Part shown: positions 37,479 through 54,200 of the stretch, piece by piece
Layout: the number at the start of each line of letters is the position of its first letter
How positions within the stretch are numbered: position 1 is the stretch's first letter
Source of the DNA: Balneolaceae bacterium
GTDB lineage: Bacteria; Bacteroidota; Rhodothermia; Balneolales; Balneolaceae
DNA length: 64,000 nucleotides
Assembly: GCA_007134695.1 (NCBI GenBank)
Contig: SLKI01000008.1
Location: 248,001-312,000 of the forward strand
Direction: 5' to 3'
Translations under genes and position numbers: made by a program
Notes under the pieces: generated by a model
What the model saw: only the letters and a program-made list of their open reading frames with translations
What the model was told of the DNA's origin: nothing
Database searches by the model: none

Positions 37479-40400
37479 ATGAAGCTGGCAAAAAAACTAT
37501 CCATCCTGAGTATTCTCCTGCTTTTCAGCGTAACGGCTCTTGCGGAATATGCGATGGCTCAATTTTTTACATTCGGCAAGAATCGTGTACAGTACGAAGC
37601 TTTTGACTGGCGATATATCGAAACCGATCACTTCGATATCTACTATTATGATTCAAAAAATTATCATCTGGCCCAGTTTACAGCCGAAGTGGTTGAGTCA
37701 TCACTTAAACAGTATATGGAGGAGTTCAACCATACGCTGAGCGAAAGAATCCCCGTCATCATCTACGATTCTCACAGCGACTTCTCCCAGACCAACGTAG
37801 TTCCCCTGCCGATCGACGCCCAGGGCATTCTGGGTGTAACCGACAAGTTCAAAAACCGGATGACACAGCCCTTCATGGGCGACTATATGGCTTTCCGCCA
37901 TACTCTCCAGCACGAGTTACTGCACGCTGTGATCAATGATAAATACTACGGCGGCAGTGTACAGTCGATCATGAGGCACAATATCCAACTTCAGTTTCCT
38001 CTCTGGTTTGAAGAGGGACTTGCCGAATATCTGTCCCAGGGATGGGACACCCAGACCGACATGTATATGAGAGATGCGGTGATCAATAACTATCTGCCTC
38101 CCCTTCAAAACCTTGGAGGTATTTTCGCTTATCGAGGCGGGCAGTCTTTCTGGTATTTCATTGCCGAGGAGTATGGACGATCCAAAATCACCGAAATTCT
38201 TCAACGGGTTATGCTGACCCGTAATATTCAGCAGGCCCTTGTCCAGTCAACCGGACTCAGTCTTGAAGAACTGAGCAATCGCTGGAAAGACAGTCTTCAG
38301 AGAAGATATTTTCCAGAAGTTGCCGAAAGAGAGCAACTTCGAGATTTTTCCACCCGGATCAGTGAGCGCGGCCGGTTCGGCTCTTATAACACCAGCCCGA
38401 CTGTTTCTCCCCAGGGAGATCGAATCGCTTTCATTTCAAATCGTCGCGGTGTCTTTGATGTGATTATCGTTAATGCCATAACCGGCGAACTTGAACAGAC
38501 CGTGATACGAGGTGAAGAGAGTGCCATGTTCGAAGAATTGAACGTACTCAACCCCAACCTGTCCTGGTCGCCGGACGGCCGCAGACTTACCCTGGCCACC
38601 AAATCGGATGGCACGTACAATCTTGGTATTATTGAAATTGCCAGCGGTGATGTTCAGCTTGTAAGGTTCTCCAATATAGATGCTCTCAATTCGGTTGCCT
38701 GGTCTCCGGACGGGAGAAAAATTGCATTTGACGGTAATATCGGCGGATACCAGAGTATTTTTGTCTATGATCTGGAAAAGGAGGAGCTGACCAGTTTGAC
38801 CCGGGATGTATTTACCGACAAGCAGCCCGCCTGGGGCCCCGATTCCGAAACGATCTACTTTGTCTCAAACCGGGGTGACAAGCTTAGAGCGGGTCAGTAT
38901 CTCTCCGGTTACTCGATTCTGCAGCACGATTTTGTCTACGAAACCGACATTTACGCCATCCGACCCGGCTCCAACACGATTCAAAGAATCACCCACTCCC
39001 CGCAGTGGTCGAACACGCAGCCGGCAATAACACGGGATGGCAGAATGGTCTATATCTCCGACAGGAACGGGGTATCCAATATTTATGAATTTGATTTTGA
39101 AAATCAGCGATCTTACCCGCTGACAAACGTCAGAACCGGTATCAACCAGATCTCTATCTCGGACGATGGCAGCAGAATTGCGTACAACGGTTTGAGTGAA
39201 GGATTTCTGGATGTTTACCTGATGAGAAACCCGTTCGACAGGCGAATGAGCCAACCCCTGACACCCAACAGATGGGCAGAAAGAAGAGCCTCCGAGTCGA
39301 TATCCGACCGAATCCCGGCTGCGGGATATGCGATGGAGATGATCGCCAGAAGACAACAAGGCAACGTTGTCCGCCATTTTGACCCGGTTGAACCGGATCT
39401 CCCCGAAATAGCAGAGGTCACAGAAGAAGAGGAGCGTACAGACCGAGTCGATTTCCGCAACTATGTGTTTGGAGAGGAGGTAATCCGGGATACTGAGCTC
39501 ACCTTGCGAGACGATCCCCGGCAATTTGAGCCCGGCGGAAATATAACTGAAGATGGGTACTATCAGCCCAAAAATTACAGACTCTCCTTCTCTTCCGATA
39601 TCACCTATGCAGCCGGACAGATCGACACCTATTTTGGCGGCTCGGCTTTTGTTATGGTCAGTCTTAGTGATCTATTTGGTGATCACCGGATCGGACTGGG
39701 TTCCAACTTGCAGTTTGATCTCAGAGAGAGTGATTATGTAATCCAATACGGTTACTTCAAACAAAGAACCAACTTCGTCGCCAATATCTTTCATCAGTCC
39801 AGGAATTTCCAAACTTTTTTCGGAGAGTTGCTCCGGTACCGTACTTATGGTCTGGGCCTGGAATTTCAGTACCCATTCAATCGCTTTGAACGAATCGACT
39901 ACGGTGCCTCCTGGATCGGTATTTCACGGGACTTCAGCTCAGTACGGGGCGTCGGTGAAGCGGACAGAGTCAGTGATACATCGACATTTTTCTATCCACA
40001 AATCACCTATACGGCAGATTATTCCCGCTTTGGCCCGATGTCTTTAACACCGGTTGGCGGCAGCCGATATTCGCTTCGACTGGCAGGGAGTCCCTCATTT
40101 CTCAGGGATGCTCCGCAATTCGCAACACTCCTCGGTGATTACCGTCGGTATATTGATCTGGGTACCCGATACTCATTTGCGCTTCGCGGGACCGGAGCAG
40201 CATCGTTTGGCCCAGACTCACAAACCTTCTTTATGGGCGGAATGCTCGGCTGGATCAATCAGCGCTGGTCTGATAACGAAATTCCGCTGGAAAACCTCGC
40301 AGATATCTTCTTTACGCAACCGGCAACTCCCCTGAGAGGACATGAGTTTAATACTCTGTTTGGCGATCGATTTACTCTGCTTAACGCTGAATTCAGGTTC

Positions 40401-40823
40401 CCGCTGTTTGGAGCTGTCATACCGGGACCGCTGCCGATTCTCCCCTTCTATAACATAACCGGTGTTGCATTTCTCGATGCAGGGGCTGCATGGGGCATGG
40501 AAATCGAATATGCAGCCTTTACCGATGCTATGACCGGGGAACCGATCGTATACCACCGGAAACCGTCCGATCTGGAATTCAGGGTCGCTCAAAGAGAGGA
40601 AGTTTTCCTCAATCCCGAAACCGGTTTACCGCGTGAAGGACCCGCCAGAGAAGGTGATATTCGGGCACACTATCTCGACGGAGATATTTTGATTGGTGCC
40701 GGATTCGGACTCCGTACGATCCTGCTCGGACTGCCATTCAGATATGATATCGGATGGGCGTACGACAGAGACGGATTTCGGAGCAACCCGATTCATTATT
40801 TCTCTCTCGGAATCGACTTTTAA
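37479..40823 (+). CDS. Fused zinc metallopeptidase / beta-propeller / outer-membrane barrel protein (paralogue 1)
   Basis: The 1114-residue protein has a signal peptide (cleaved near Gln28) and a gluzincin-type peptidase domain with HELLH (145-149) and the glutamate of EEGLAEY (178-184). About six TolB/PD40-type propeller blades follow (300-560; each with a WSPDGR or SPQGDR turn), then a C-terminal barrel of about 380 residues ending in FSLGIDF. The barrel shows Omp85-like signatures (LNAEFRFPLF and VAFLDAGAAWG). It is thus a surface or periplasmic protease fused to its own outer-membrane anchor. A second copy of the same architecture is encoded at 50195. Substrate is unknown. Confidence 0.82.
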   Translation: MKLAKKLSILSILLLFSVTALAEYAMAQFFTFGKNRVQYEAFDWRYIETDHFDIYYYDSKNYHLAQFTAEVVESSLKQYMEEFNHTLSERIPVIIYDSHSDFSQTNVVPLPIDAQGILGVTDKFKNRMTQPFMGDYMAFRHTLQHELLHAVINDKYYGGSVQSIMRHNIQLQFPLWFEEGLAEYLSQGWDTQTDMYMRDAVINNYLPPLQNLGGIFAYRGGQSFWYFIAEEYGRSKITEILQRVMLTRNIQQALVQSTGLSLEELSNRWKDSLQRRYFPEVAEREQLRDFSTRISERGRFGSYNTSPTVSPQGDRIAFISNRRGVFDVIIVNAITGELEQTVIRGEESAMFEELNVLNPNLSWSPDGRRLTLATKSDGTYNLGIIEIASGDVQLVRFSNIDALNSVAWSPDGRKIAFDGNIGGYQSIFVYDLEKEELTSLTRDVFTDKQPAWGPDSETIYFVSNRGDKLRAGQYLSGYSILQHDFVYETDIYAIRPGSNTIQRITHSPQWSNTQPAITRDGRMVYISDRNGVSNIYEFDFENQRSYPLTNVRTGINQISISDDGSRIAYNGLSEGFLDVYLMRNPFDRRMSQPLTPNRWAERRASESISDRIPAAGYAMEMIARRQQGNVVRHFDPVEPDLPEIAEVTEEEERTDRVDFRNYVFGEEVIRDTELTLRDDPRQFEPGGNITEDGYYQPKNYRLSFSSDITYAAGQIDTYFGGSAFVMVSLSDLFGDHRIGLGSNLQFDLRESDYVIQYGYFKQRTNFVANIFHQSRNFQTFFGELLRYRTYGLGLEFQYPFNRFERIDYGASWIGISRDFSSVRGVGEADRVSDTSTFFYPQITYTADYSRFGPMSLTPVGGSRYSLRLAGSPSFLRDAPQFATLLGDYRRYIDLGTRYSFALRGTGAASFGPDSQTFFMGGMLGWINQRWSDNEIPLENLADIFFTQPATPLRGHEFNTLFGDRFTLLNAEFRFPLFGAVIPGPLPILPFYNITGVAFLDAGAAWGMEIEYAAFTDAMTGEPIVYHRKPSDLEFRVAQREEVFLNPETGLPREGPAREGDIRAHYLDGDILIGAGFGLRTILLGLPFRYDIGWAYDRDGFRSNPIHYFSLGIDF

Positions 40824-45894: not shown

Positions 45895-47172
45895 ATGCAT
45901 AAGAGCAGAAACGTTTCGGCTGACGAGTCGGCTAGCGAATATATTGAGCAGCTTGAAAAGCTGGTTGAAGCATCCAAGATCGTACACTCCACACTCGACC
46001 TGGATGAACTTCTGGAATTGATTCTCGACACAGCCCTTCAGGGAGTCAATGGAGATCGCGGTACAATCTATCTGATCGACAGAGAGAAAAATCGCCTCTG
46101 GTCCAAAGTATTAAAAGGAGAAGAGGAAGTAGTCATTGAGCTACCTGTCGGTGAAGGTATCGCAGGCCATGTAGCTGAAACGGGTGAGACTCTCAATATC
46201 GCTGATGCCTCCAAAGACAAGAGATTTAACCCCGATTTTGACAAGAAAACCGGATATAAGACCCGTACGATTCTATGTATGCCGCTGAGAAATCGAGACG
46301 GTAAAATGATCGGTGTGTTTCAGCTCCTCAACAAAAAGAAGGGTACATTCACTTCTCAGGACGAATCATTTATTGAGGACCTCTCCATTCATGCTGCATC
46401 TGCTATCGAAAATGCACGACTGTATGAACAAGAGAGGCAAAAGATTGCGATGGAGAAAGAGATGAGTGCTGCCTGGGAAGTGCAGAAACTTCTTTTCCCG
46501 GAGAAGACACCACAACGAGACAATTACAAAATTGCCGCTCTGAACATTCCGGCCAGGCAAACTTCGGGGGACCTCTACGACTTTGTTGAGCTTGACGGCG
46601 GACGAGTGGTTACTGCACTTGGCGATGTATCCGGAAAAGGGCTTCCGGCCTCCATTTTAATGGCCAATCTGCAATCTGTTATGCGGGACCTGCCCTATCA
46701 CAACGCATCTCCATCCTACTGCGTAAGCCGCTTTAACAACATCATCCATCGATCCAGCAGCTCCGGTAAGTTTATCACCCTGTTCTTTGGGGTTCTCGAT
46801 CCTGAAAAAAACAGTTATTCATACTCCAATGCGGGCCATGAACACCCTTACCTGTTTCGCGACGACCGCACCGATCGGCTCTCAAGCGGCGGACTGCCGC
46901 TGGGAGTCATGCCGGAGAGTCCGTATGACGAAGATGAAGTCAGCCTGAACCCGGGAGATACACTCCTATTGTTCACCGACGGAATTTCTGATGCGATCAA
47001 TAAAAACGATGAAAACTATTCAGAGAAAAGACTGGTCGAACGGGTATCGGAGCTGAAAGACCAGGAGCCAAAGCAGATTATCGACCAGGTCCTTGAAGAA
47101 GTACAAAATTTTATTGGTGAAGCACCCCAATTTGACGACCTGACGATGATGATTATTCAAAGAAACCGGTAA
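45895..47172 (+). CDS. GAF domain-PP2C (SpoIIE/RsbU-type) phosphatase
   Basis: The 425-residue cytosolic protein has a coiled-coil-like lead (15-30), a GAF sensor domain (30-175) and a PP2C/SpoIIE domain (190-425). Metal-binding aspartates appear in SGDLYDF (Asp226), GDVSGKG (Asp244), LLFTDGISDA and the terminal FDDLTMMII. Such proteins dephosphorylate a STAS antagonist in partner-switching control of sigma factors. A STAS gene follows 37 bp downstream and an ECF sigma factor gene after that. No RsbW-type kinase is visible in the window. The GAF ligand is unknown. Confidence 0.92.
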   Translation: MHKSRNVSADESASEYIEQLEKLVEASKIVHSTLDLDELLELILDTALQGVNGDRGTIYLIDREKNRLWSKVLKGEEEVVIELPVGEGIAGHVAETGETLNIADASKDKRFNPDFDKKTGYKTRTILCMPLRNRDGKMIGVFQLLNKKKGTFTSQDESFIEDLSIHAASAIENARLYEQERQKIAMEKEMSAAWEVQKLLFPEKTPQRDNYKIAALNIPARQTSGDLYDFVELDGGRVVTALGDVSGKGLPASILMANLQSVMRDLPYHNASPSYCVSRFNNIIHRSSSSGKFITLFFGVLDPEKNSYSYSNAGHEHPYLFRDDRTDRLSSGGLPLGVMPESPYDEDEVSLNPGDTLLLFTDGISDAINKNDENYSEKRLVERVSELKDQEPKQIIDQVLEEVQNFIGEAPQFDDLTMMIIQRNR

Positions 47173-47209: not shown

Positions 47210-47494
47210 ATGTTAAAGATTGAGAAAAACCATAACGGACATTACCGACTGAGCGGTCGGTTCGACGCCGCTCAGGCAGAAGAAGCAGAGCAGATTCTGG
47301 GAGATCTCGACAATTCCGTCACATTGGACTTTTCAGACCTGGACTATATTTCCAGTTCCGGGCTCACCATATTGATTCAAACACATAAACGGCTGGATAA
47401 AAGCGGGCATCAGCTGAAACTGGTAAACCTGAACGATCATATACGCGACGTATTTATGTACACACGCCTCGATCAGGTTTTTGATATCGAATAA
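47210..47494 (+). CDS. STAS-domain anti-sigma factor antagonist
   Basis: This 94-residue protein has the SpoIIAA fold: VTLDFSDLDYISSSGLTILIQTHKRL contains the serine cluster (48-50) where antagonists are phosphorylated. It would be the substrate of the GAF-PP2C enzyme encoded just upstream. I chose ATG 47210 over a TTG at 47195. The ECF sigma gene follows 10 bp later. The matching anti-sigma kinase is absent from the window. Confidence 0.9.
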   Translation: MLKIEKNHNGHYRLSGRFDAAQAEEAEQILGDLDNSVTLDFSDLDYISSSGLTILIQTHKRLDKSGHQLKLVNLNDHIRDVFMYTRLDQVFDIE

Positions 47495-47504
47495 TCTCTT
47501 ACTG

Positions 47505-48038
47505 ATGAAGAGCAAACCCAGCGATCTCCAGATCATTGAACGTTGCCTTGATGGCCGATCAGGTGATTTTCGCTTGCTGATTGAGCGTTATCAGCAGCCG
47601 ATGTATCGGACGGCACTCGGGATTACCGGAGACCCGGAACGAGCCAAAGATATCACGCAGAATGGTTTCATTAAAGCCTGGGAGAAGCTCGATACGTTTG
47701 ATCCAAATCACCGTTTTTTCAGTTGGCTTTATAGAATAATCGTTCACGAAGCGCTCAACTCAAACCGGGCAGAAGAGAAATTCACTTCTTTGAACAGGAT
47801 GCCGCCGGATTCCGAAACACCTCATCTGCAAGTTGTTAAAGAAGAGAGCAAACAGAAACTTCGGCAGGCATTGAAGACTCTCAAGCCAAACTATCGTACG
47901 ATCATACATCTGAGACATTTCGAAGAGCTCAGTTACCGGGAGATTGCCGAAATTTTGGATATCGAAGAGAAAACAGTCAAATCCAGGCTCTATACCGCAC
48001 GGATGAATCTGCGAGACGCCCTCAATGCAAAAAGCTGA
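47505..48038 (+). CDS. ECF-type RNA polymerase sigma factor
   Basis: The protein is 177 residues with sigma-70 region 2 (LIERYQQPMYRTALGITG through WLYRIIVHEALNSNR) and region 4 (YRTIIHLRHFEELSYREIAEILDIEEKTVKSRL, a helix-turn-helix), and no regions 1 or 3, as in the extracytoplasmic-function group. ATG 47505 is the first in-frame start that keeps the family N-terminus. It lies 10 bp after the STAS gene and 94 bp before the membrane-bound repeat protein, which has an anti-sigma-like cytoplasmic domain. I infer that the two form a sigma/anti-sigma pair. Confidence 0.92.
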   Translation: MKSKPSDLQIIERCLDGRSGDFRLLIERYQQPMYRTALGITGDPERAKDITQNGFIKAWEKLDTFDPNHRFFSWLYRIIVHEALNSNRAEEKFTSLNRMPPDSETPHLQVVKEESKQKLRQALKTLKPNYRTIIHLRHFEELSYREIAEILDIEEKTVKSRLYTARMNLRDALNAKS

Positions 48039-48132: not shown

Positions 48133-49992
48133 ATGAAGAAAGAAATCGAAATATTAATTCAGCGCGAACTTGACGGGGTTAACAGCCCGGAAGAGAGCCG
48201 AAAGCTTCAGGTCATTCTGAAAGAGAATGAAGAAGCACGCGAACTCTACGAAGAACTCTCTGAAATTTCCGATCAATTAAGCGATCTGAAAAAGGAAATG
48301 TCCGGAAAAATCCCCGAGGATCTCAGCGAAGAAGTTATCCAGCAATTAACTCCTCGACATACTGCATCGACGCGTAACGATGCAGGTGCAGATACCGAAA
48401 AAGGATCTAATATCATACATCATAAAACAACGGAGGTTAACATGCCTGACAACCCAACATTTTCAGGTAAATTTATCGCTACCGTAGCGGCAGTAGCCGT
48501 AATTGCGGTAGCCATCGCACTCTTCACAGCAGACTTTTCACAGCCTGGCGAAGAGGAAGTTGCAGGCACGATCGGGGCAGATGGAATTGAAGGCGTCGAA
48601 CGTGCCGAGCGGCACAGAGCAGAACAGATCACAAGCGCAGATGTCATCCTGGAGGATGCACATTACCAGGATATCCTGCAGAGTGATCTTTTCCAGCGTC
48701 TGGTCGCATCAGGTGAGCTACAAGAGCTGGCCAATAACGCAACCTTTGTGGAACTGGCGAGACAAGAGGCTTTTCTTGAACTTGCAAATAACCCGGCAAT
48801 GTTCGAGTTGGCAGCTAATCCCGCATTTCTGGATCTGGCAAGCAGTCCGGAATTTGTTGAACTGGCATCCAATCCGGCTTTCGAAGAACTTGCATCACAA
48901 GCAGCATTTATGGAGCTGGCAGGCAGCCCGGCATTCGCCGAACTGGCCAACAGCCCGGAGTTTGCAGAGCTAGCACGATCAGCCGATCTAAGAGAGCTGG
49001 CCAATAACGCTTCCTTTGTCGAGCTTGCCAACAGTCATGGACTGACCGAACTTGCCAATAACCCGGCGTTTCTCGAGCTGGCCGCCAATCCTGGTGTACT
49101 GGAACTGGCCAATAACCCGGCTTTTGCCGAACTGGCTGAAAACCCGTCTTTCACCGAACTGGCCTATAGTATGTTTCCCAGCGATACGTTTGATGCGGGC
49201 GATCTTCGCTTTCCCAGCGATACATTTTTCCCAAGCGATACATTTATGGAGTTGGCCAACAATCCTGCATTCATCGAGCTGGCCAACAATCCGGAATTTG
49301 TTGAACTGGCACGCTCGGCCGACATCGCCGAACTGGCCAATAATGCGTCCTTTGTTGAGCTGGCTAACAGTCACGGACTGACCGAACTGGCGAGCAACCC
49401 GGCTTTCATGGAACTCGCTGCTAACGAAACGTTTGTCGAACTGGCAGCCAGTGAAACACTGGTTGAGCTGGCCAATAATCCGGCATTTATCGAGCTTGCG
49501 GCTAATGAATCGTTTGTTCAGCTCGCGTCCAATCCTGTTTTTGCCCAGCTTGCAGCCAATGAAGCGTTTCTGGAACTTGCCGGCAATCCGGCATTTGTCG
49601 AACTGGCAAGTAACCCTGCCTTGGTTGAAATGGCGGCAAACCCGATGTTTATGGAACTGGCTGCCTATCCGGCATATCTTGAACTGGCCATGAATCCTTC
49701 TATGGTTGAGTTAGCTGGAAGCGCGTCTTTTACTGAACTGGCTGCCAATGAAACATTCCTGGAACTGGCTGGAAATCCGGCCTTTGCCGAACTTGCGGCT
49801 TCTCCCGCCTTTGTCGAGCTGGCCGCTAACGAAACCTTTGTTCAGCTGGCTGCCAATGAGTCCTTTGTAGAACTGGCCTCAAATCCGGCATTTCTCGAGC
49901 TGTCTAACAATGCCAGATTCCTTGAACTGATGAACTCAGCCGGTTTCTACGACATGATGCGCCAGGATCAATTCCAGCTTCAACTTGACTGA
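48133..49992 (+). CDS. Transmembrane anti-sigma-like protein with 44 tandem 9-residue repeats
   Basis: The 619-residue product has three parts. Residues 1-72 form a helical cytoplasmic domain (IQRELDGVNSPEESRKLQVI) with the pattern of anti-sigma N-terminal domains but without the zinc-binding His/Cys residues. Residues 112-131 are a single membrane helix. From about 196 to 610 the chain is a repeat array with unit [FL]-x-E-L-A-x-N-P-x, of which 17 copies lie in register at 198-344 and 27 at 373-609. A linker with three FPSDTF copies (348-371) separates them. The array probably forms a solenoid outside the cytoplasm, but no solved fold is assigned. The gene follows the ECF sigma gene; a terminator follows its stop. 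Confidence 0.85.
   Translation: MKKEIEILIQRELDGVNSPEESRKLQVILKENEEARELYEELSEISDQLSDLKKEMSGKIPEDLSEEVIQQLTPRHTASTRNDAGADTEKGSNIIHHKTTEVNMPDNPTFSGKFIATVAAVAVIAVAIALFTADFSQPGEEEVAGTIGADGIEGVERAERHRAEQITSADVILEDAHYQDILQSDLFQRLVASGELQELANNATFVELARQEAFLELANNPAMFELAANPAFLDLASSPEFVELASNPAFEELASQAAFMELAGSPAFAELANSPEFAELARSADLRELANNASFVELANSHGLTELANNPAFLELAANPGVLELANNPAFAELAENPSFTELAYSMFPSDTFDAGDLRFPSDTFFPSDTFMELANNPAFIELANNPEFVELARSADIAELANNASFVELANSHGLTELASNPAFMELAANETFVELAASETLVELANNPAFIELAANESFVQLASNPVFAQLAANEAFLELAGNPAFVELASNPALVEMAANPMFMELAAYPAYLELAMNPSMVELAGSASFTELAANETFLELAGNPAFAELAASPAFVELAANETFVQLAANESFVELASNPAFLELSNNARFLELMNSAGFYDMMRQDQFQLQLD
48718..49176 (+). repeat. Tandem 27 bp coding repeats, block 1 (17 units)
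   Basis: Seventeen consecutive 9-residue units, with their ELA cores at residues 198, 207, 216 and onward to 342 without a register slip. At DNA level the 27 bp units are diverged, so the repeat is old or selected at protein level. Confidence 0.9.
49243..49962 (+). repeat. Tandem 27 bp coding repeats, block 2 (27 units)
   Basis: Twenty-seven further units with ELA or related cores at residue 373 and every 9 residues to 607. The last few units decay (ELS, ELM, DMM), which looks like a capping end. Confidence 0.9.
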
Positions 49993-50097: not shown

Positions 50098-50124
50098 AAA
50101 ATGCCCCGTGACCCGGGGCATTTT
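50098..50124 (+). terminator. Rho-independent terminator of the repeat-protein gene
   Basis: An 8 bp stem ATGCCCCG/CGGGGCAT (50101-50108 and 50114-50121) with a 5 nt loop is extended by A/T pairs and followed by TTTTTGTTTTTG. It lies about 110 bp after the stop at 49992. Confidence 0.85.
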
Positions 50125-50131
50125 TGTTTTT

Positions 50132-50152
50132 GTACTCAAGAGTACGTTTTTT
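50132..50152 (+). terminator. Second, weaker terminator-like hairpin
   Basis: GTACT/AGTAC (50132-50136 and 50141-50145) with a 4 nt loop is followed by a GTTTTTT tract (to 50152). It directly follows the first terminator, giving a tandem pair upstream of the next gene. Confidence 0.45.
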
Positions 50153-50194: not shown

Positions 50195-53170
50195 ATGTTG
50201 GCAAACTACAAGGTTGGGAGATTCATTTCGGCAATCATCCTGTTTCTCGCAGGCTCTCTGATTATCGAAAGCCTGCACACTGTAAACGGTCAGTTCAGAT
50301 CGATCAAGACCGACGATCTGAACCTGATCTATTATGATTTCGGGCACGAGATGCTGCTGGGTCATACGATCAGAAGCTACACCAACGCTCTGAACTATCA
50401 CCGTAACAAGTTTAATTATGAACTCTCCGAACCGGTTACCGTGATCGTTCAGGATTTTGGTGACTTTGGCAATGCGGGTGCGTCCTCCGTACCGGAGAAT
50501 GTGATCCTGATGGGTATCTCCCCTTTTCACTACGCTTTTGAAGCCAATCCGGCCAATGAGCGGATTAACGTATTGATGAATCACGAGCTGGTTCACATCG
50601 CCGCACTGGACAACACGTCACGGTCGGACCGTTTCTTCCGCTCCCTCTTTATGGGCAAAGTCGATCCGGTGCAGGCCGATCCCGTATCGATGTTTTACGG
50701 ATATCTCACTACACCCCGCCGCTTTTCCCCGCGGTGGTATCACGAAGGGATCGCTGAATTTATGACCACCTGGATGTCGGGAGGTATCGGCCGGGTGATG
50801 GGTGCGTACGACGAGATGATGTTTCGTACAATGGTACTCGATGATGCTCATATCTACGATGCGATCGGCCTGGAGTCGGAAGGAACCACAATCGATTTTG
50901 AAGTCGGGGGTCACTCTTACATGTACGGAACCCGATTTATGTCCTATCTGGCGCTGCAGTATGGACCTGAAGCGCTATTGGAATGGACCGCCCGAACCGA
51001 CAGAACCAAACGATACTTTTCAAGACAGTTCAAAGAGGTTTATGACGTCTCACTCGATGAAGAGTGGTCGCGCTGGATCGAATGGGAGAAAGAGTGGCAG
51101 CGACAAAATCTGGACAGAATCCGGCAAAATCCGGTAACAGAAGCCAGGCCCCTCTCCCGAGAGCCCCTCGGTGGAGTCTCCAATGCGATCTACGACCCGG
51201 AGCGGGATCAAGTATATGTTGCGGTTGCAAAACCCGGCGAAGTCTCCCATATCACAATTCTCGACCCGGAAACCGGTAATCAAAGGCGTTTGACAGACAT
51301 TCAGAGCCCCGCACTGAACTTTGTGAGTTCCCTGGCGTTCGACCCGGCAACATCCACCCTCTTCTATACCGATGACAACAACAGCTGGCGGGATCTCTAT
51401 TCTGTAGACGTAGAAACTGGAAACAGGGAAAGATTGATCCGGAATGTACGAACCGGCGACCTGGTCTTTAATACTACCGACCGGTCGATTTGGGGTGTCC
51501 GGCATTACAATGGCATAACCTCCCTGGTACGCATCCCCTACCCTTACGAGGAGTGGAATCTCATCTATTCACTCTCTTACGGAGATGACATATTCGATAT
51601 CGACATTTCACCAGACGGAACCTATCTGAGTGCAGCTGTGGCTGATGTGAGCGGTAATCAGAAACTTGTAATGCTGGAAATTAACGACCTGATAGAGGGT
51701 GATTTTAATCCCGATGAGATCTTTGACTTTGAGGTTAGCTCGCCTGCCAGCTTCAAATTTTCTCCAGACGGCCGATTTCTTTACGGTTCAACGTATTACA
51801 GTGGTGTTTCCAACATCGTACGGTACGACAGAGAGAACGAATCGATCCGGTGGCTGACCAACGCTGAAAGAGGATACTTTCGGCCGGTACCTGTATGGGA
51901 AGACTCCCTGTTGGCTTATGAGTATACCGGGCAAGGTTTCCGGCCCGTCAAACTGGCCGACGAACCGGTAAGCAATGTGAGTGCAATTCAATTTCTGGGT
52001 CAGGAGATTGTCAATTCTCACCCTCAGGTTATTGATTGGATGATTGAACCACCCAATCCGGAGTCTGTCGACATCGACACCATGATTATCGAGCGCAGTG
52101 ATTACTCCTCAGCCCGGAATTTATCACTGAGCGCTGCCTACCCAATTGTTGAAGGCTATAAACACTATGCGGCCGGAGGATACCGAATCGACTTTCACGA
52201 CTCCATGCGGCTTCACCATCTCGGGATTACCGCTTCATATTCTCCGCACCCCGCTTTGCCCGACTCGGAACGATTCCACGGTTCTATCAGCTACGATATG
52301 CCATCGTGGTATTTCTATGCCAATTACAACAACGCAAACTTCTATGACCTCTTTGGACCCACCCGAACCAGCCGCAAAGGATACTCGATCGGGCTCCGGC
52401 ACAACAGGAATCTGATTCACGATCGCCCGAGAACGCTCGATTTTTCGGTTGGAGGAGCCTATCACGGCGGGATGGAGACTCTTCCCGATTTCCAGAACAT
52501 TATTACCTCCTTCGAAAATTTCTGGAGCATATCAGCTAACTTGAGTTACAGCAATGTACTCTTCTCACTTGGAGCGGTGGATCATGAGAAGGGATTACGG
52601 TGGGATCTCGGGCTCAATTCCAACTATGTCGAGGGGCGATTCTTCCCTCGAATACACCAGAACCTCGACTATGGTTTCGAACTGCCATTTAACCACTCCT
52701 CACTCTGGCTGCGATCTTCGGTAGGCTACTCCTTTTCTCCCAAACGGGAACCGCTCGGAAACTTCTATTTCGGCGGCTTTGGAAACAACTGGATCGATCA
52801 TCAGCCGAGCAGGCGATACCGGCAATACTACTCATTCCCTGGTACAGAGCTGAACCAGATAGGAGGTACAAGCTACGGAAAACTGCTTGCAGAATGGACG
52901 ACACCACCTCTGAGATTTCGCAGATTCGGATTTCTCAACCTCTACGCCAATTGGGCGCAGATCAACTTCTTCTCCTCCGGTATTGTAACCAATGTAGATG
53001 ACCACGACTGGATGCAGCGATACTACAATGTAGGGGCTCAAATTGATATTCGCCTGGTCATTTTTTCTATCCTCGACTCTACTCTTTCGGCGGGTTACGC
53101 CTCGGCCTGGAATCATGAGCTCGGAATTCGTAGCGACGAGTGGATGATCTCACTGCGAATAATGAGGTAG
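50195..53170 (+). CDS. Fused zinc metallopeptidase / beta-propeller / outer-membrane barrel protein (paralogue 2)
   Basis: The 991-residue protein repeats the layout of the 37479 product. It has an N-terminal signal segment (to about 33) and a peptidase domain with HELVH (130-134) and the glutamate of HEGIAEF (183-189). Propeller blades with FSPDGR or ISPDGT turns follow (about 310-610), and a C-terminal aromatic-rich strand series of about 330 residues would insert into the outer membrane. The N-terminal pieces (IYYDFGHEMLLG versus IYYYDSKNYHLA) are similar enough to call it a paralogue. It lies downstream of the tandem terminators and 4 bp before the PrsW-like gene, so these two are one transcript. 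Confidence 0.8.
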   Translation: MLANYKVGRFISAIILFLAGSLIIESLHTVNGQFRSIKTDDLNLIYYDFGHEMLLGHTIRSYTNALNYHRNKFNYELSEPVTVIVQDFGDFGNAGASSVPENVILMGISPFHYAFEANPANERINVLMNHELVHIAALDNTSRSDRFFRSLFMGKVDPVQADPVSMFYGYLTTPRRFSPRWYHEGIAEFMTTWMSGGIGRVMGAYDEMMFRTMVLDDAHIYDAIGLESEGTTIDFEVGGHSYMYGTRFMSYLALQYGPEALLEWTARTDRTKRYFSRQFKEVYDVSLDEEWSRWIEWEKEWQRQNLDRIRQNPVTEARPLSREPLGGVSNAIYDPERDQVYVAVAKPGEVSHITILDPETGNQRRLTDIQSPALNFVSSLAFDPATSTLFYTDDNNSWRDLYSVDVETGNRERLIRNVRTGDLVFNTTDRSIWGVRHYNGITSLVRIPYPYEEWNLIYSLSYGDDIFDIDISPDGTYLSAAVADVSGNQKLVMLEINDLIEGDFNPDEIFDFEVSSPASFKFSPDGRFLYGSTYYSGVSNIVRYDRENESIRWLTNAERGYFRPVPVWEDSLLAYEYTGQGFRPVKLADEPVSNVSAIQFLGQEIVNSHPQVIDWMIEPPNPESVDIDTMIIERSDYSSARNLSLSAAYPIVEGYKHYAAGGYRIDFHDSMRLHHLGITASYSPHPALPDSERFHGSISYDMPSWYFYANYNNANFYDLFGPTRTSRKGYSIGLRHNRNLIHDRPRTLDFSVGGAYHGGMETLPDFQNIITSFENFWSISANLSYSNVLFSLGAVDHEKGLRWDLGLNSNYVEGRFFPRIHQNLDYGFELPFNHSSLWLRSSVGYSFSPKREPLGNFYFGGFGNNWIDHQPSRRYRQYYSFPGTELNQIGGTSYGKLLAEWTTPPLRFRRFGFLNLYANWAQINFFSSGIVTNVDDHDWMQRYYNVGAQIDIRLVIFSILDSTLSAGYASAWNHELGIRSDEWMISLRIMR

Positions 53171-53174
53171 TTCG

Positions 53175-54200
53175 ATGGTGCTTGAAATAGCGGTTGCCTT
53201 TGCTCCCGTTTTACTGTTTTTGCTCGTTCTGATCCTGTTCGACAGCTTCAAACTGGTAAGCTGGCGCTCTCTTGGCTTTGCTATCCTGTACGGGGCTGCG
53301 GCGGCACTGGCTGCCATGCTGATCAATTCCAACCTGATCGATTGGACCGGGCTTACTCTCCGGGAATTCTCCCGTTTTATCGCTCCGTTCAGCGAAGAGG
53401 TGATTAAATTTTTATTCATTATCTATTTGATTCAAAGCAGCAGAACGGGATTTCTCGTCGATGCAGCGATCTACGGAGTTGCGGTCGGAACCGGTTTTGC
53501 CATTATCGAGAACATCTACTACATGAGCTCACTCTCTGACGCCGCTCTGACAACCTGGTTTGTCCGCGGATTCGGAACCGCGCTGATGCACAGCGGAGTT
53601 GTTGCAACAGGAGCTATCCTGTGTAAAGACCTGGCAGACCGGAAAAGTTGGCCTGTCCTCCCCACCTTTCTCTCCGGCCTGGCCACCTCTATTCTGCTGC
53701 ATCTGCTCTATAACCAGTTCCTTCTCCCGCCCCTCACCCTCACGCTCATCATTCTGGTTACCCTGCCTCCAATCGTCTATGGAGTCTACAAAATCAGCGA
53801 AAACCAGACTCGCAACTGGCTCGACAGCGGCCTGGAACACGAAACCGAACTTCTTCGAACACTCAAAGCAGGCAACATTTCCGACACTCCGGTCGGACGC
53901 TATCTGCAAACTGTTCAGGAGAGCTTTCCGGGAATTTTGATGGCTGATATCATCGGATATCTGCGCACCTATCTGGAACTCTCCATCAAAGCCAAGGGGT
54001 GGATTGTGATGAAAGAAAGCGGTGTCTCCGTGCCGCTTGACAACGAGACGAAAGCACAATTCCGTGAGTTGAAATTCCTGGAAAAGAGCATCGGAACTAC
54101 CGGCAAACTTGCACTGCAGCCTCTGCTCAAGATGAAAACCCGTGAACTTTGGCAACTCTACAAAATGCAGGAAGACTATAATTTGAGAGCTGGTAGCTGA
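53175..54200 (+). CDS. PrsW-family intramembrane metalloprotease
   Basis: PrsW in Bacillus makes the first cut in the anti-sigma factor RsiW. The 341-residue protein has about seven membrane helices and the three family motifs: EEVIK (Glu74-Lys78), FAIIEN (108-113, with Glu112) and His139 in ALMHSGVVATGA. A later His176 lies in LLHLLYN. The C-terminal 130 residues form a soluble charged domain. It is encoded 4 bp after the metallopeptidase-barrel gene and one transcript away from the anti-sigma-like repeat protein, a natural candidate substrate; this link is inferred from position only. Confidence 0.85.
   Translation: MVLEIAVAFAPVLLFLLVLILFDSFKLVSWRSLGFAILYGAAAALAAMLINSNLIDWTGLTLREFSRFIAPFSEEVIKFLFIIYLIQSSRTGFLVDAAIYGVAVGTGFAIIENIYYMSSLSDAALTTWFVRGFGTALMHSGVVATGAILCKDLADRKSWPVLPTFLSGLATSILLHLLYNQFLLPPLTLTLIILVTLPPIVYGVYKISENQTRNWLDSGLEHETELLRTLKAGNISDTPVGRYLQTVQESFPGILMADIIGYLRTYLELSIKAKGWIVMKESGVSVPLDNETKAQFRELKFLEKSIGTTGKLALQPLLKMKTRELWQLYKMQEDYNLRAGS

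Follow-up and report, generated by a model that had tools for sequence, protein, structure and literature searches.

What is the role of a protein that joins an anti-sigma-like domain, through a membrane helix, to a long array of nine-residue repeats, and that is encoded directly downstream of an ECF Sigma factor gene? The gene lies in the window, the 64,000-nucleotide stretch of Balneolaceae DNA analyzed here (Table 1), and its product contains the one membrane helix that an earlier note on this DNA had claimed, at about residues 113-134. We propose, with a probability of about one half, that the protein belongs to an ECF sigma switch of the RsiW/PrsW type, in which a periplasmic helical arm is coupled to an outer-membrane partner encoded by the next gene.

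Table 1. Features of the sigma factor cluster, in coordinates of the window
Feature	Position	Strand	Evidence or remark
GAF-SpoIIE phosphatase (partner-switching module)	45895..47172	+	Pfam SpoIIE 173.5 bits, GAF 75.6 bits
STAS anti-anti-sigma-like protein	47210..47494	+	Pfam STAS 48.6 bits; ORF also open from TTG 47195
ECF sigma factor	47505..48038	+	Sigma70_r2 58.1 bits, Sigma70_r4_2 58.8 bits; TIGR02937 111 bits; ATG at 47505, ORF open from TTG 47481
Full-length fused protein (putative anti-sigma domain, membrane helix, juxtamembrane domain, nine-residue repeat array)	48133..49992	+	619 aa; ~25 Balneolales homologues
Putative anti-sigma domain on the cytoplasmic side (residues 1-76), lacking zinc ligands	48133..48360	+	Foldseek, hmmsearch, AF2
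Internal Shine-Dalgarno sequence GGAGGT	48432..48437	+	conserved in homologous fused genes
Shorter product predicted to start at the internal ATG (Met104): 516 aa, membrane-anchored, with repeats but no anti-sigma domain	48442..49992	+	
Transmembrane helix, residues 113-134	48469..48534	+	sequence; AF2 helix 113-133
Conserved juxtamembrane domain GTIG...VERAERYRxTQ...D, residues 137-199	48541..48729	+	two alignments; also in separate-gene versions
Repeat array 1, residues 193-348	48709..49176	+	lag-9 identity, anchor spacing
FPSDTF-rich insert, residues 349-370	49177..49242	+	sequence
Repeat array 2, residues 371-613, 27 units	49243..49971	+	anchor spacing; repeat-only AF2 model
Intrinsic-terminator-like hairpin in the spacer between repeat gene and outer-membrane gene	50098..50133	+	inverted repeat and T-run
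Outer-membrane partner: N-terminal zincin motif, beta-propeller, C-terminal barrel	50195..53170	+	HELVH 50582-50596
PrsW-family intramembrane protease	53175..54200	+	Pfam PF13367 74.2 bits, cutoff 23.5

The nine-residue period is exact. Between residues 191 and 619, residues nine positions apart are identical with a frequency of 0.48, compared with 0.107 +/- 0.014 (maximum 0.15) in 2,000 shuffles, and with 0.05-0.07 at lags of 7, 8, 10 and 11. Anchor residues recur at this spacing in two blocks, one of 19 units (178 to 340) and one of 27 (371 to 605); a single 31-residue step between them spans the FPSDTF-rich insert. The register and the 44 units (17 plus 27) claimed by the earlier note are thereby confirmed, our higher count for the first array arising from two degenerate units at its start. 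The register recurs in over 20 distinct homologues, whose arrays have 26-43 units; it is unbroken in most of these arrays, and the remainder have one or two steps of 7, 13 or 14 residues. The sequence of the unit varies by lineage (FVELANNPA, FNRLMASPD, FVSLMREPA, FRNMLAVED, RDDNIVAAF), yet the hydrophobic pattern and the period are constant.

These relatives, which include full-length proteins in about 25 genomes of Balneolales, were found by searching genome contigs with an alignment; a single-protein query gave none. The names given by submitters include a few “Ignavibacteriales” and “Bacteroidetes” metagenome-assembled genomes and many sediment-type isolate names. The array matches no sequence in the PDB, no Pfam or NCBIfam family describes it, no Pfam repeat family scores above its cutoff, and searches of the literature collection covered here found no description of the repeat or of the system. 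Hence, the suspicion that the repeat belongs to no named family is borne out. Matches to Pfam UPA_2 and DUF4144 were rejected as short stretches multiplied by repetition. TIGR04519 (49 bits) and NF047558 (36 bits) exceed their cutoffs, and were rejected as artefacts of the same kind, since their best single stretches cover only 22-27 residues within the array.

Could the array simply have arisen by recent and neutral expansion of a tandem repeat of 27 bases, with no special function? Tandem Repeats Finder does report short stretches with periods of 27 and 54 bases. However, where the window's protein has the same residue nine positions apart, the codons are shared at a frequency of 0.44, compared with 0.43 expected from codon usage, and nearly all other arrays are similar. 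Codon sharing at the level of usage indicates that the units are old and that selection on the protein keeps them alike, and on this ground we rejected a recent origin of the nine-residue units by tandem duplication or gene conversion. Many homologues also keep the register intact through 30-43 units, and together these observations make a neutral expansion extremely improbable. That units remain so uniform with unrelated codons is an evolutionary puzzle in itself. In one pair of relatives (L031 and L033), the arrays differ by Ala versus Pro or Val at one position of the unit in ~30 of 33 units, although the codons show no recent exchange between units.

The array is predicted to be helical. 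With the full alignment, AlphaFold2 placed seven-residue helices separated by two-residue gaps throughout both arrays, with pLDDT mostly 45-70, and modeled residues 1-50 as helical with pLDDT 75-89. With an alignment of the repeats alone, from 19 arrays, the best model reached a mean pLDDT of 83 (58-71 for the other four; pTM 0.39). The short helix that the earlier note had guessed for each unit is thus what AlphaFold2 predicts, one seven-residue helix per unit. AlphaFold2 can be over-confident on repeats, and for this reason we treat the helical solenoid as a prediction only, albeit a good one. Such a rod would resemble HEAT, TPR and TALE-type alpha-solenoids in its head-to-tail helical units, but it would differ in having nine residues and one helix per unit, rather than 30-40 residues and two helices; the repeat-only model has no fold match in the PDB by Foldseek (best E = 5). 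To our knowledge, nine residues would be the shortest unit of any natural alpha-solenoid. RTX proteins also have a nine-residue period; in contrast to their beta-roll, the array lacks the GGxGxDxUx motif and is predicted to be helical.

The N-terminal domain (residues 1-76) is likely to be an ECF anti-sigma domain of the ASD class, judging from sequence profiles and a modeled fold. In a Foldseek search with the full model, its first 72 columns matched RsiW from the complex with SigW (5wuq_D; TM-score 0.65 by target, probability 0.92), a match that stands low in the list because most of the query is array. A profile of the domain, searched against PDB sequences, matched RsiW over 73 positions (E = 0.0023), and in the only PDB sequence that scored higher, no individual stretch passes by itself. 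The same profile weakly matches other anti-sigma-like proteins that are encoded directly after ECF genes. Hence, the anti-sigma-like character claimed for this region is supported by both fold and profile, but only as a resemblance to RsiW: for residues 1-76 no Pfam anti-sigma model exceeds its cutoff, and NF052375 reaches 20.3 bits against a cutoff of 100. The domain has no Cys, and so lacks the HxxxCxxC zinc ligands that define ZAS/zf-HC2 proteins; it is therefore not the zinc form.

The surrounding genes are consistent with a role in sigma factor control. An ECF sigma gene is directly upstream of the fused gene in the window, as had been claimed, and in every Balneolales locus with enough upstream sequence, and a STAS orthologue adjoins the ECF gene in nearly all loci. 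The typical order at homologous loci is an RsbW-like ATPase, STAS, ECF, the fused gene, the outer-membrane protein and PrsW. The window's cluster has no RsbW-like gene, and the nearest relatives of that gene are elsewhere in the genome. The PrsW gene follows the partner gene at every locus with an anti-sigma gene and enough sequence, except L146, and does so after a 1.7-kb gap in L036; where sigma genes are absent, PrsW was not detected, save for a weak match (E = 6e-5) in L147. The window's PrsW protein scores 38.5 bits against NCBIfam NF033739, under the 225-bit cutoff for equivalogs. The host genome also encodes M50 site-2 protease candidates.

The gene between the array gene and PrsW encodes an outer-membrane protein of ~990 residues. 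Its HExxH motif and a downstream Glu are kept in 44 of 44 homologues, and its propeller and barrel give only sub-cutoff matches to TolB, Omp85_2 and Porin_4. Hairpins similar to that in Table 1 are found in the same spacer at many homologous loci, so co-transcription of the array and partner genes is not required. Simple dyad counts in the spacer revealed no convincing ECF promoter motif shared before the outer-membrane gene. The two genes occur together: among 129 Balneolales genomes, 24 have both and 101 have neither, while two have only the array gene and two only the outer-membrane gene (Fisher p = 1.4e-21, uncorrected for shared ancestry). Three of the four discordant cases are at contig edges (outer-membrane gene only in G028 and G091, array gene only in G053). 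The fourth genome, G056, encodes a degenerate 277-residue protein with 10 weak units, and the outer-membrane gene was not found there at the threshold used. A separate relative (L013:1495-1749; genome G018) has an 84-residue anti-sigma stub, without membrane helix or array, in a sigma cluster of the same kind; the partner gene is absent.

Is the array in essence part of an anti-sigma factor? The earlier note implied that it is; outside Balneolales, however, the array is mostly a separate gene beside the outer-membrane protein. In distant members of the class and phylum (L086, L087, L088, L122, L124, L143 and L144), the anti-sigma and membrane-repeat genes are separate neighbors, followed by the outer-membrane gene and PrsW. 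Fused and separate versions have in common the membrane helix and the motif GTxG...A.RYRxxQ...D, and across Bacteroidota the gene just before the partner gene encodes a protein with the juxtamembrane motif, irrespective of the repeat that this protein carries. This slot holds nine-residue arrays in L088, L143, L144 and L147, a 12-residue array in L124, a 5/10-residue array in L087, a four-residue array in L122 (a GREV/GKEV tandem repeat at L122:3129-3713), and no clear repeat in L086, L123, L145, L148 and L149. In L147, the nine-residue array and the outer-membrane gene have no sigma genes nearby. Hence, the expectation that homologues follow ECF genes is true of all Balneolales loci with enough sequence but fails for L147, and the repeats are not always linked to sigma factors, an outcome that the earlier note had itself listed as counting against its reading. 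The separate genes and L147 together indicate that it is the outer-membrane protein, rather than the sigma factor, that constantly neighbors the repeat protein.

L147 also fits a different view of the array, as a structural strut or tether from the inner membrane to the outer-membrane partner that serves spacing or recognition, with sigma control secondary and kept only where the genes are fused or adjacent. We consider this rather doubtful, since most lineages with nine-residue arrays have retained the genes for the sigma factor, the anti-sigma factor and PrsW. A sigma switch with a periplasmic arm is our preferred reading, and because in related bacteria the arm is a separate gene beside one outer-membrane protein, it probably connects that protein to the regulator.

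In four Ignavibacteria-like relatives (L151, L154, L155 and L158), with no sigma or PrsW-like genes detected at the loci, the slot directly upstream of a distant outer-membrane homologue is occupied by signal-peptide proteins with units of 15 or 16 residues (L151:4244-5203, L154:4968-5819, L155:5262-5738, L158:4515-5000). The units, SGSQLDELGSKYGWVR and similar, are nearly perfect. Lag-48 DNA identity of the 16-residue units in L151 is 0.996, and we accept recent duplication or conversion for this array. On our reading of a short sequence match, VQEATRYRVNQD, these proteins may be related to the juxtamembrane motif. Their near-perfect units at the DNA level, and the intact HExxH...E of all partner homologues, would suit an array that is a substrate, or a precursor of many peptide copies, whose units are cut by the zincin and leave through the barrel as signals, the anti-sigma domain only regulating production. 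For the nine-residue arrays this seems unlikely: the units vary at several positions, an obvious cut site is lacking, AlphaFold2 gives a regular helical solenoid, and the protein is membrane-anchored and fused to the anti-sigma domain.

Comparison of gene boundaries indicates that the Balneolales gene arose by fusion of an anti-sigma gene to a once-separate membrane-repeat gene. In L146, a second fusion seems to have occurred independently. What remains of the old boundary? Just ahead of the membrane helix is a conserved Met, with a GGAGG-type sequence at -9 to -12. Such a Shine-Dalgarno sequence precedes this Met in 21 of 23 non-redundant fused genes. Of the 414 other Met codons in frame, only 15 have one (p = 4e-24), as do only 3 of 19 ordinary starts of the long protein. 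The internal start corresponds to the point at which the membrane-repeat gene begins where it is separate (L086-L088, L122, L123, L143 and L144), and the separate-gene relatives mostly carry the same site at their true start. The site is read as GGA GAC in L043-L047 and as cGG AGG or GAG GTN in others; since the reading frame varies, the conserved element is DNA, not peptide. Retention of the site and the ATG at the old gene boundary makes two products likely. Hence, on the strength of sequence conservation, the 516-residue membrane-repeat protein is probably made alongside the full-length protein. A product without the anti-sigma domain would also suit a strut. Neither this start nor the outer-membrane partner and the PrsW gene had figured in the earlier note.

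One further pair of loci bears on the strut. In L072 and L073, DNA identity drops sharply to 0.76-0.85 over the array, while the flanks are mostly 0.95-1.00 identical, and the differences are in register and mostly at third codon positions. Raised divergence of the array between near-identical flanks is a point in favor of the strut. The pattern looks like replacement of an allele. A diversity-generating retroelement was rejected as its cause, since the spectrum is not adenine-specific and the changes are mostly at third positions.

How might the switch work? We propose that the cytoplasmic domain (residues 1-76) holds the sigma factor, and that an elongated solenoid of ~44 nine-residue units, anchored by the membrane helix, extends across the periplasm, where it would act together with, and perhaps touch, the neighboring zincin-propeller-barrel protein. 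If that contact changed, or if the zincin domain cut the arm, PrsW and subsequently a site-2 protease would gain access to the anti-sigma factor, freeing the sigma factor; the signal would run inward. The domain architecture, the gene order, the co-occurrence, the fusion and the conserved internal start are seen in the sequences, whereas sigma binding, physical contact with the partner, PrsW cleavage and the direction of the signal are what we propose from them. The zincin may, however, have an unrelated substrate. The short product could share or compete for the partner. In B. subtilis, PrsW and RasP cleave RsiW, and the regulon responds to alkaline and salt shock (PMC3498285). The two systems are alike in their RsiW-like cytoplasmic domain, single membrane helix and upstream ECF gene, and in having a PrsW-family protease, which here is in the same cluster and linked across loci. 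They differ in that the Balneolales system has no zinc ligands, a helical array of ~420 residues outside the membrane, an outer-membrane zincin-propeller-barrel neighbor, SpoIIE and STAS genes alongside, and a fused gene that contains an internal start. The core of the switch is of a familiar type, whereas arm, partner and dual-start fusion are unfamiliar. If it operates as proposed, it links the outer membrane of Bacteroidota directly to an ECF sigma factor.

More tentatively, a broader envelope signaling system is possible, in which a zincin-propeller-barrel receptor of the outer membrane is paired across the phylum with a partner whose array is interchangeable in length and repeat (9, 12, 15/16, 10/5 or 4 residues, or none), and is wired to an ECF sigma factor through the dual-start gene in Balneolales; the nine-residue alpha-solenoid would be kept uniform by selection on the protein, not by DNA exchange. 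If so, one slot with different repeats offers a natural series for length and type of arm, and the nine-residue unit is a very short helical repeat that could be useful in protein design. Another protein of the window (37479-40823; PD40 80 bits) combines peptidase-MA, PD40-propeller and barrel-like regions in an apparently similar domain order to that of the partner, whose own family is tied to the juxtamembrane-repeat neighbor.
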